Origin: Longimicrobium sp.
Lineage (GTDB): Bacteria; Gemmatimonadota; Gemmatimonadetes; Longimicrobiales; Longimicrobiaceae
Length of the DNA: 64,000 nt
NCBI GenBank assembly: GCA_036377595.1
Contig: DASUYB010000026.1
Span: 1-64,000 of the forward strand
Direction: 5' to 3'
Shown here: positions 1,721 through 50,045 of the stretch, in pieces
Position numbering within the stretch: position 1 is the first letter of the stretch
How the letters are laid out: every line of letters starts with the position of its first letter
Position numbers and translations under genes: made by a program
Notes under the pieces: model-generated
Told to the model about the DNA's origin: nothing
The model's input: the letters and a program-made list of their open reading frames with translations, nothing else
Database searches by the model: none

Positions 1721-1888
1721 TCACGGCGGGCAGCAGCGCCCGGCCGTCACGGTGATGCACACGTCGCAGCTGTGGCAGGTCTGCACCTCGGTGAAGAATC
1801 CCTGCACCGTGCCCTCGTGCATCTCCTTCGCGTCGGTGGTGAACGAGTCCACCGCCAGCTTGTCCACGTCCAGGGTCAGCTTCTTCAT
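1721..1888 (-). CDS. small Cys-rich peptide with RiPP-like leader
   Basis: A 55-residue peptide beginning MKKLTLDVDKLAVDSFTTD and ending in a Cys-rich tail (CHSCDVC ... RCCPP, five Cys). The ATG at 1888 has a good ribosome site (AGGAGA, 7 nt upstream), which favours this start over the longer open frame. The leader motif, Leu-x-Leu-Asp then Leu-x-Val-x-Ser-Phe-x-Thr, recurs in five other short genes at 48.2-49.8 kb. The division into charged leader and Cys/Thr-rich tail looks like a ribosomally made, modified peptide precursor of pinensin/lanthipeptide type. That function is inference: no lanthionine, YcaO or other maturation gene is adjacent, and no signal peptide is visible. Confidence 0.72.
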   Translation of the reverse strand: MKKLTLDVDKLAVDSFTTDAKEMHEGTVQGFFTEVQTCHSCDVCITVTAGRCCPP

Positions 1889-45003: not shown

Positions 45004-45201
45004 TCACGTCGTGCAGGGACACGAGTACTCGACCGGATTGCAGCAGGCGGGGCAGCGATTGTGGCTGTCTTTCCAGCGCGTCTTGAACTTGCACCCTTCG
45101 TCGAGCATGTCCTCCTGAGCGGTCAGCAGCCGGGGCCCCGCCGCGGCCAGCATCAGCAGCGCCGCCGCGGCGAGGCGGAAACACTTCGTCTTCATGCTCA
45201 T
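45004..45201 (-). CDS. small exported Cys-rich peptide
   Basis: A 65-residue peptide with a clear signal (CFRLAAAALLMLAAAGPRLL). The mature part of about 35 residues starts near QEDMLDEGCKFKTRWKDSHN and has six Cys (CKF, CPACC, SCPC). The ATG at 45201 has an AGGAGG site 5 nt upstream and is preferred to the Met two codons later. It sits between a redoxin-like lipoprotein and a propeller lipoprotein in one operon, a layout like Bacteroidota NVEALA-peptide loci; the peptide itself lacks that motif. Six Cys could give three disulfides or modification sites. Confidence 0.68.
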   Translation of the reverse strand: MSMKTKCFRLAAAALLMLAAAGPRLLTAQEDMLDEGCKFKTRWKDSHNRCPACCNPVEYSCPCTT

Positions 45202-48069: not shown

Positions 48070-48148
48070 TCTCACGCGGAGACGCGGAGACGCGGAGGAG
48101 TCGGGCGCATTCCTCCGCGGCTCCGCGGCTCCGCGTCTCCGCGTGAGA
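48070..48148. repeat. palindrome family P, copy 5
   Basis: Opens TCTCACGCGGAGACGCGGAG; 8-nt spacing between GCGGAG units. The right arm has four units and the left three, as if one unit had been gained by slippage. Begins 5 nt after the DUF4015 stop. Confidence 0.85.
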
Positions 48149-48240
48149 ATTCTAGTGCTGGGGGGCGACGTGATTGTTGGTCGGGAGATGGACGGCTACC
48201 ATGAAGGGTGATCCCATCCCCCCCAACCCGTGAGATGACG

Positions 48241-48432
48241 ATGAGCCGCCTGACCCTCGATCCGTCGACGCTGCGCGTGGAGTCGTTCGAAGGCGTCGTC
48301 CCCATCATCATCGGGGCGGGCGGAGAGACTTATCCCGACTGCCCGACGGCGACGGGGTGCACCTGCGTCGACGCCTGCATCTCCATCGTCCGCCCGCCCT
48401 GCCAGGAGACGGTCGCCGTCGCCACGGCGTAG
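48241..48432 (+). CDS. small Cys-rich peptide with RiPP-like leader
   Basis: A 63-residue peptide with the shared leader MSRLTLDPSTLRVESFEGV and a Cys-rich, Thr-rich tail (YPDCPTATGCTCVDACISIV, then RPPCQE; five Cys). A second ATG lies two codons upstream (MTM...); 48241 is chosen because it matches the leader start of the related peptides. It is the only member at this site on the plus strand, facing the four minus-strand members across the SnoaL gene. Precursor of a modified peptide is inference from the leader-tail split. Confidence 0.72.
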   Translation: MSRLTLDPSTLRVESFEGVVPIIIGAGGETYPDCPTATGCTCVDACISIVRPPCQETVAVATA

Positions 48433-48478
48433 CGACTCGTCGCGCCGGCGAAAACCGTCGCGTGGGCGAACGGGGGCT

Positions 48479-48509
48479 GGGGGAAGATGCAACGTCGGCG
48501 TCTTCCCCC
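48479..48509. terminator. 12-bp hairpin between convergent genes
   Basis: GGGGGAAGATGC pairs with GCGTCTTCCCCC (one G-U) around a 7-nt loop, then TTCTCC. It lies between the peptide gene and the convergent SnoaL gene and can serve both. Confidence 0.65.
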
Positions 48510-48539
48510 TTCTCCATCCCTGCAATCCTCCGGATCGGA

Positions 48540-48968
48540 TCACACCACAGCGGCGGGGGCGAGCTGCTGCATCATCCCGAAGACGTCGTTCTCGACCCAG
48601 TCCTCCGCAACCTTCCCGTCGGCAAAGCGCAGCCAGCTGATCCCCGTCCAGCGGGCGCGGGCGCCGCTCGGCTCCACGCCCAGCAGCGGGCCGCGGTGCG
48701 TGCCCTCGGCGGTCCAGCGCACGCACACCACGTCGCCCGCGGCCACCGTCTCGTGCACGGTGAAATGGAGATCGGGGAACGCGGCGAGATAGCCTTCGAT
48801 CACGCCGCGGATGACGGCGGGGCCGCGGGCGTCCTCGGGCCCGCCGGTCAGGTGGAGGCGGTAGTCGGGGGCGAACAGCTCGTCCACCACGCCCAGGTCG
48901 CCCGCGTTCATGGCGGCGAACCAGCGCAGGGCGAGCTGGCGGTTGCGTTCGGTCTGGTCGATCGGCAT
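48540..48968 (-). CDS. SnoaL-like / ester cyclase family protein
   Basis: A 142-residue NTF2-fold protein of the SnoaL/ester cyclase type. RQLALRWFAAMNAGDLGVVD, ELFAPDYRLH, VIEGYLAAFPDLHFTVHETV and VVCVRWTAEGTHRGPLLGVE match the family well. It has no signal. SnoaL enzymes close rings of polyketides, but most family members are of unknown function. Whether its position between the two groups of leader peptides means anything is not known. Confidence 0.85.
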   Translation of the reverse strand: MPIDQTERNRQLALRWFAAMNAGDLGVVDELFAPDYRLHLTGGPEDARGPAVIRGVIEGYLAAFPDLHFTVHETVAAGDVVCVRWTAEGTHRGPLLGVEPSGARARWTGISWLRFADGKVAEDWVENDVFGMMQQLAPAAVV

Positions 48969-49042
48969 CGGAGGCTCCGAGGGCTGCGGGGATGTGCGCT
49001 CGTCGAGGAGCTTACGCCGCCCGGCATCCCGCGGATCTCATG

Positions 49043-49080
49043 GAAGAGGGGAGGACGCCGCGTGCGTCCTCCCCCTCTTC
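49043..49080 (-). terminator. hairpin after the leader-peptide cluster
   Basis: A 16-bp stem (GAAGAGGGGAGGACGC with GCGTCCTCCCCCTCTTC, one bulge) lies 19 nt past the last peptide gene on the minus strand. It marks the end of the four-gene cluster. Confidence 0.6.
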
Positions 49081-49099
49081 GTCTGCATCTCCCGCGAAG

Positions 49100-49273
49100 T
49101 CAGCCGGCGACCGGGTCGGCGGGCTCCTTCGGGCACCAGGGCGTGGTGCACTCGCGGCCCTCGGTCATGCATAGCGGCGAGACGCAGTTGTCGGACTGCA
49201 CGGTCATCGGCACGGACAGCGGCGCCGTGTCGAACGTGGTGACCGACAGCGCGTCGGGATCGAGCCTGGTCAT
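49100..49273 (-). CDS. small Cys-rich peptide with RiPP-like leader
   Basis: A 57-residue peptide, too short to be found by ordinary gene callers with a 60-residue limit. Leader MTRLDPDALSVTTFDTAPLS, then SDNCVSPLCMTEGRECTTPW, with a fourth Cys in WCPKEP. The C-x-S-P-x-C pattern is shared with two neighbours. GGGAG lies 7 nt upstream of the ATG. Last of four tandem genes on the minus strand before a terminator hairpin. Precursor function inferred as for the other members. Confidence 0.68.
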   Translation of the reverse strand: MTRLDPDALSVTTFDTAPLSVPMTVQSDNCVSPLCMTEGRECTTPWCPKEPADPVAG

Positions 49274-49316
49274 CTGTGCTCCCGCGTACGAGGAATCAGG
49301 CAGTTCCCACCATCGC

Positions 49317-49463
49317 CTACGGACACTGGTCCGGCAGCCACGTGGGAGCGCAGTACGGCGAGTAGCAGCGGGGCTGCGGCGCGGTGTACGCCGCGCTCTC
49401 GATCGGTGTGGCCTCGGCGGTCGCGAACGAGGTCACCTCGATCTGGTCGATGGAAAGCGGCAT
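49317..49463 (-). CDS. small peptide with RiPP-like leader
   Basis: A 48-residue peptide: leader MPLSIDQIEVTSFATAEATP, then a Pro/Tyr-rich tail with CYSPYC and a final Cys (DQCP). It has three Cys, and C-x-S-P-x-C as in two neighbours. It starts 8 nt after the stop of the preceding member, so these genes are probably read from one transcript. GGATAGG upstream is a modest ribosome site. Confidence 0.68.
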   Translation of the reverse strand: MPLSIDQIEVTSFATAEATPIESAAYTAPQPRCYSPYCAPTWLPDQCP

Positions 49464-49470
49464 GGCGCGC

Positions 49471-49629
49471 CTATCCGCACCTGGTGACGCAGGTCCGCTG
49501 CTCGGTGTCCATGCACAGCGGCGACCAGCACTCGATCTGCTGCGTGTCGATGACCGTGGTGCCGGTCGACGGCGCGGCGACGGTGTCGAACGACGAGACC
49601 TGGAGCTCCTCGAGCTTGAGCCTGGGCAT
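49471..49629 (-). CDS. small Cys-rich peptide with RiPP-like leader
   Basis: A 52-residue peptide: leader MPRLKLEELQVSSFDTVAAP and tail ECWSPLCMDTEQRTCVTRCG (four Cys, with C-x-S-P-x-C). A strong GGAGG lies 5 nt upstream of the ATG, which fixes the start; a longer frame upstream is not needed. The tail resembles the member at 49100 (CVSPLCMTE against CWSPLCMDT), so these two are recent relatives. Confidence 0.72.
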   Translation of the reverse strand: MPRLKLEELQVSSFDTVAAPSTGTTVIDTQQIECWSPLCMDTEQRTCVTRCG

Positions 49630-49691
49630 GCGGTCCTCCGGGTGCGGTGATGGGGGGACGGCGGAGCAGAAGTGTTCCGCCGGTGGCGCAA

Positions 49692-49832
49692 TCAGCGCGT
49701 GATGGGCGGGCACCCCGCCATGAATGAGAAGCAGTCCTCGCCATGGGTGGTGGTGGGCAGCGCCACCGTGAGCACCGCGGGGGCGCCGGTCTCGAACGAG
49801 GTGACCCGCAACTGGTCGAGCGACAGCGACAT
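49692..49832 (-). CDS. small peptide with RiPP-like leader
   Basis: A 46-residue peptide: leader MSLSLDQLRVTSFETGAPAV, then Thr-rich LTVALPTTTHGEDCFSFMAG and CPPITR. It has only two Cys. GGAGG lies 7 nt upstream of the ATG. It is the first gene of the tandem group and lies 232 nt downstream of an M1 peptidase gene on the same strand, with palindrome P copy 6 between. An exported peptidase could in principle trim a leader, but there is no direct evidence. Confidence 0.7.
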   Translation of the reverse strand: MSLSLDQLRVTSFETGAPAVLTVALPTTTHGEDCFSFMAGCPPITR

Positions 49833-49980: not shown

Positions 49981-50045
49981 GCTCACGCAGAGCAGCAGAG
50001 GCAGCGGAGAACATACCTCTGCTACCTCTGCTGCTCTGCGTGAGC
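49981..50045. repeat. palindrome family P, copy 6
   Basis: Arms of 30 nt opening GCTCACGCAGAG with GCAGAG units at 8- and 9-nt spacing. One C-A mismatch and one G-U. It separates the peptide cluster from the M1 peptidase gene. Confidence 0.82.

Follow-up and report, generated by a model that had tools for sequence, protein, structure and literature searches.

Probable pinensin-type lanthipeptide precursors dispersed through a Longimicrobium genome, with split LanB and LanC enzymes encoded at a distance

Between positions 48241 and 49832 of a 64,000-nucleotide stretch of contig DASUYB010000026.1 from Longimicrobium sp. (the window, meaning the whole stretch analyzed) there are five very short genes that share one leader and end in cysteine-containing tails. 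A preliminary description, made from the sequence alone, took them for precursors of ribosomally synthesized and post-translationally modified peptides (RiPPs) with a pinensin-like leader. The question that this locus raises is whether they really are such precursors and, if so, which enzymes would act on them, given that no maturation enzyme gene is found inside the window, as had already been noted. We have examined 21 genomes of the family, namely the source genome of the window (G000) and its relatives (G001 and following). The features of the window that matter here are these:

48241..48432, plus strand: precursor peptide 1, 63 aa; leader HMM E 5e-4, type-B profile E 3e-5
49100..49273, minus strand: precursor peptide 2, 57 aa, CVSPLC in tail; leader HMM E 1e-4, type-B profile E 5e-6, ribosome site GGGAG
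49317..49463, minus strand: precursor peptide 3, 48 aa, CYSPYC in tail; leader HMM E 4e-4, NF038180 E 0.026 (below cut-off)
49471..49629, minus strand: precursor peptide 4, 52 aa, CWSPLC in tail; leader HMM E 3e-5, syntenic orthologue in G003
49692..49832, minus strand: precursor peptide 5, 46 aa; leader HMM E 1.5e-5, NF038180 E 0.003 (below cut-off), syntenic orthologue in G003
1721..1888, minus strand: sixth precursor peptide, 55 aa, canonical leader with GTV, tail CHSCDVC...CC; leader HMM E 1e-14, NF038180 E 0.0024
49043..49080, minus strand: strong hairpin after the last tandem gene, -39.5 kcal/mol for a 73-nt stretch, z -4.2
4114, 12226, 30353, 41032, 48071-48147, 49982-50044 and 52163: CTCACGC...GCGTGAG palindromes

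All five frames of 46 to 63 residues were present as described, and the copy at 1721-1888 is an addition. The leader HMM was trained on 49 leaders from elsewhere in the genome, with the window sequences excluded, and it recovered exactly these six frames, with scores of 18.1-52.1 bits and E from 5e-4 to 1e-14; among the remaining ORFs of the window the best had E = 1, and the best score over 60 random windows was 11.8 bits. A Pfam search of the five peptides gave no match. In the leader motif proposed earlier the D is D or E, and the C-x-S-P-x-C element does occur in three tails. The tandem group is real, with gaps of 62, 7 and 43 nt instead of the 8 to 62 nt first given. A ribosome site had been claimed for each gene; clear GGAGG or GGGAG sites precede 49832, 49629 and 49273, but those at 49463 and 48241 are weak. 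Peptide 1 (48241) has five Cys, lacks the GTV element treated below and has an alternative start at 48235. The hairpin said to close the group is also real but lacks a minus-strand T run; it is a possible transcript end, and scans for terminators and sigma-70 promoters called nothing, this hairpin included. The palindromes, seven in number, 63-77 bp long and interspersed, were absent from shuffled sequences, and two of them flank the peptide cluster. Another short ORF (45004-45199, minus strand) begins like a signal peptide and has a tail rich in Cys (MKTKCFRLAAAALLMLAAAGPRLLTAQ...RCPACCNPVEYSCPCTT); it has no pinensin leader.

The leader extends far beyond the window. The profile search suggested in the preliminary description, which had seen five copies, gave 180 distinct leader ORFs over the G000 loci fetched, spread over 45 contigs in 73 places, which is a lower bound for the genome (best E in the reversed-sequence control, 0.14). 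This number comes from the HMM; an earlier regular expression had given 145 frames, at least one of them false (C94:104311). Within the fetched loci 40 precursors were singletons and the longest run was of 13. Homologues of the leader in related genomes, without which the first reading would have been refuted, were found as well, some 150 or more of them in the richest relatives. With a profile made from the G000 copies (E ≤ 0.01) there were at least 150 matches in G000 and in G003, at least 149 in G001, 85 in G009, 79 in G014, 51 in G015, 19 in G008, 11 in G002, six in G020 and one in G007, and none in the remaining 11 of the 21 family genomes. Outside the family, among 395 genomes drawn evenly from the phylum, the leader was present in two only, with one or two copies each. 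These counts depend on draft assemblies and on profile thresholds, and the contamination estimate for G000 is 4.83%. Contamination is not an easy explanation, because several separate assemblies show the leaders, among them G009, about 98% complete and with about 1% contamination.

The variation is concentrated in the tails, with mean pairwise identities of 49% for the leaders and 35% for the aligned cores. At least two Cys were present in the tail of 179 of the 180 G000 ORFs, and the tail composition was about 15% Cys, 13% Thr and 7% Ser. One could think of unmodified disulfide-rich or metal-binding small proteins with a common targeting N-terminus, and the amount of cysteine would suit them, the chemistry of the tails being inferred only. 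We consider this very improbable: the leaders have no signal-peptide-like hydrophobic stretch, Thr and Ser beside Cys fit thioether substrates and, within the family, the leader occurs only in genomes that bear LanB.

Most copies have a leader of the form M[KR]KLxLxxDxLxVESFxT, with GTVx[AG] seven or eight residues further on. The five window leaders, together with a minority elsewhere, have neither the GTV element nor the KK start. Precursors with and without GTV are found together inside the cluster on contig C103 of G000 (see below) and inside the C23 cluster of G003, and a difference in leader thus need not mean a different enzyme. We had considered that the GTV-less frames were paired only with LanB of the type found on contig C98; this was rejected, since such frames adjoin a C103-type set in G003 and occur within the C103 cluster itself. 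The NCBIfam model for pinensin leaders (NF038180) matched three of the five window frames with 14.4-17.4 bits, below its cut-off of 24, and did not match the remaining two. Across G000 the same model gave 91 matches at E ≤ 1, about nine or ten of them over or nearly over the curated cut-off, and the window frames connect to these passing copies through their own family profile. The likeness to pinensin-type leaders remarked on earlier is supported by these matches, together with the co-occurrence of the leader with split LanB that is described below.

We have compared the window locus with its relatives. In G003, the nearest relative that has a syntenic site, orthologues of 49629 and 49832 lie close downstream of the M1 peptidase gene shared with the window (87% protein identity). 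The first pair has dN 0.16 and dS 0.44 with a near-identical core (CWSPLCMDT-QRTC), the second dN 0.23 and dS 0.65 with a closely aligning tail (GEDCFS-MAGCPPITR). The dN/dS is about 0.36 for each frame and 0.29 for the peptidase, and the synonymous excess pooled over both frames has p 4e-4. Synteny, dN/dS and this excess indicate that both frames are under purifying selection as proteins. The other three frames have no counterpart at the syntenic G003 site, and in G009, G014 and G015 the peptidase is present without precursors beside it, indicating that the content of the locus changes quickly and that some of the window copies could be decaying. It could therefore be argued that the window copies are relics, duplicates without the GTV recognition element whose maturation has been lost, and the two weak ribosome sites point the same way. 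This seems unlikely to us in view of the selection on two frames with cores near-identical across species, and of the GTV-less precursors inside LanB-LanC clusters; besides, at the place where 49629 has TGTTVID in the window, its G003 orthologue has kept TGTVID.

As to the enzymes, the two halves of a split LanB, LanB_N (PF04738) and LanB_C (PF14028), were each found in exactly the 10 of 21 family genomes that have leaders (Fisher p 2.8e-6 if genomes are independent, which is only approximately so). Presence and absence vary within genera: G004, G005 and G006 lack leaders, LanB_N and LanB_C within the genus, and genus g10 has one genome with all three and one with none. The link is accordingly not only a matter of shared ancestry. 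LanC is looser, being present in 13 of the 21 genomes, three of them leaderless, and for this reason LanC alone was rejected as the leader partner. No YcaO was found in G000, nor did YcaO correlate with leaders across the genomes. In G007 a single split LanB adjoins the single leader match; in G001 at least 149 leader matches stand against one LanB pair. A precursor with this leader also accompanies the homologous LanB loci of Ignavibacteriales and Acidobacteriota. The adjacency of same-leader precursors to LanB-LanC in several phyla, with the family-wide co-occurrence, supports the identification as RiPP precursors.

Two complete LanB-LanC sets were found in G000, on contigs C103 and C98, both off the window contig and both with PF04738 and PF14028 on separate proteins. 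The preliminary description had left a choice between maturation genes acting at a distance and a different chemistry; with these sets on other contigs and YcaO absent, the former is the better option, and which of the two sets is cognate for the window peptides is not determined. The C103 order is LanB_N, LanB_C, LanC with an extension, two precursors, eight more precursors, an ABC exporter without C39 domain, HlyD and a subtilase (the exporter and protease domains were assigned by Pfam on G015 homologues and carried over to C103 through tblastn matches of 48-76% identity). C98 carries the second, divergent set, whose LanC (L065:7743-8978) has a CCG zinc motif, characteristic of ProcM-like synthetases (PMC10783134). 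Compared with LicM2 and LANCL1, the LanCs retain the zinc-ligand motifs WCHG and CHG or CCG; their best model was the LanM-like TIGR03897, with a score below its cut-off as expected for a lone cyclase. The nearest solved relative of LanB_N was 6ec7, a lantibiotic dehydratase domain protein that we take to be TbtB, and LanB_C fell below the pyridine synthase cut-off.

Two other candidates in G000, a class III LanKC at C145 and a LanB_N-only protein at C1 (L068:9647-11770, minus strand), were set aside as they were not tied to leaders. The latter adjoins ABC transporter and NRPS-like genes, with no LanB_C nearby, and is perhaps of the peptide aminoacyl-tRNA ligase type. We also observed that the second half of the C98 LanB_C protein (L065:18131-19813, 560 aa) has, by eye, an HxxGxAxD...WWH pattern like VanY/M15 peptidases, and that a 622-aa protein inside the C98 lanthipeptide cluster (L065:10840-12708) has a weak glycosyltransferase 2 match.

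The C103-type LanCs (L067:16839-17600 in G000 and homologues) have in common a C-terminal extension of about 235 aa. Its AlphaFold model (mean pLDDT 81, seven sequences) resembles TglI (Foldseek E 1.4e-6), NGO1945 (1e-4), the leader-binding domain of TbiB1 and PqqD, and Pfam gave weak PqqD and NGO1945_C matches. Because of these fold and Pfam matches the extension is probably a RiPP recognition element (RRE), a reading that relies on a predicted model and for which there are no binding data. It differs from the RRE proteins TglI and NGO1945 (HvfC) in being fused to a lanthionine cyclase, leader binding being inferred. RREs have been reported in many fused proteins, and no LanC-RRE fusion is described in the portions of the two RRE surveys available to us (PMC7470986, PMC12710340). 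The kinship with TglI and NGO1945, which belong to other RiPP pathways, and the presence of LanC in leaderless genomes leave some room for a leader that serves a different kind of modification (radical SAM, YcaO, MNIO, methylation or epimerisation), its link to LanB being one of shared descent only. We hold this to be quite unlikely, as LanB_N and LanB_C track the leader exactly, precursors lie within LanB-LanC operons, and YcaO is missing from G000 and uncorrelated with leaders (radical SAM and MNIO fell outside the genome-wide search).

The leader family, its copy number, the co-occurrence and co-location with LanB/LanC, the selection on two frames and the make-up of the clusters were computed directly. 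On this basis the window genes are very probably dispersed precursors of class I, pinensin-type lanthipeptides, matured in trans by split LanB/LanC enzymes encoded elsewhere. Against this stand the window leaders without GTV and under the NF038180 cut-off, the lack of an enzyme in the window, the draft state of the assemblies, and the absence of any transcript, peptide or mass data. In the mechanism that we propose, each gene would encode a leader L-x-[LP]-[DE]-x-x-L-x-V-x-S-F-x-T followed by a hypervariable Cys/Thr/Ser-rich core; the leader would be recognised in trans by the split LanB enzymes, dehydration of Ser/Thr would be divided between LanB_N, for glutamylation, and the separate LanB_C, for elimination, and LanC would join Cys into thioether rings. 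The subtilase would then cut off the leader and the ABC-HlyD exporter secrete the product, and the RRE-like domain fused to the C103-type LanC may give a second grip on the leader, with tolerance of many cores as a result. Binding, dehydration, ring formation, proteolysis, export and the use of these enzymes by the window peptides are inferences, as is any function of the peptides.

The leader family and the split LanB were already known from the pinensins of Chitinophaga, whose LanCs are related to LanM cyclase domains (PMC7268733), as is that of G000. Our case belongs to a different phylum and, where the pinensins have a few precursors in one cluster, it has from tens to about 180, scattered; only here have we noted a LanC with an RRE-like fusion, and most copies, the window's five included, are under the family cut-off. 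The thiopeptide split dehydratases (TbtB/TbtC type) also have glutamylation and elimination on separate proteins, and 6ec7 is nearest to our LanB_N, but here YcaO is missing from G000, LanC is present and LanB_C stays below the pyridine synthase cut-off. In the open-access literature (subscription papers were outside the search) we found no paper joining pinensin-type leaders with Gemmatimonadota. An antiSMASH report on Longimicrobium terrae listed three lanthipeptide regions, one of them hybrid, and RiPP regions without known relatives (PMC7291104); a cluster-based report of this kind would not reveal scattered precursors. Individual genes may already carry the pinensin-leader name through NCBI's leader model.

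The textbook case of natural combinatorial peptide biosynthesis is that of the prochlorosins, which involves one class II enzyme type; our best reading of the present system is a pinensin-type, class I analogue of it. Like the prochlorosins and synechococsins (ProcM/SyncM), our system has scattered precursors with one leader, hypervariable cores and few enzymes, and the CCG motif of the promiscuous ProcM recurs in the C98 LanC (PMC10783134). It thus meets the prochlorosin-type criterion of scattered precursors with a common leader and variable cores, and does not meet that of a single promiscuous LanM, the leader-associated sets being class I split LanB with LanC; the leader is unrelated too (not Nif11, no GG site). 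Precursors per enzyme in prochlorosin-type systems number 29 and 79 (PMC10783134), against at least 149 for the single LanB pair of G001, and the largest class I number highlighted in a large survey was ten, in one cluster (PMC7268733). We lean, with moderate confidence, to the idea that one class I dehydratase-cyclase set with a cyclase-fused RRE matures at least 150 unrelated cores encoded chromosome-wide, and that it evolved independently of the prochlorosins. If this single-set reading holds, no natural lanthipeptide library known to us is larger per enzyme.

With at least 180 scattered genes and one or two enzyme sets, the bacterium appears to maintain a natural peptide library of very large size. 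If true, this class I system, its precursors about twice as numerous as in the prochlorosins, would mean that such libraries evolved twice, and the split dehydratase with its possible RRE-bearing cyclase would give peptide engineers a new set of substrate-tolerant enzymes. It would also explain why cluster-based genome mining misses most such peptides, and the purpose of peptide libraries would become testable in a second lineage.
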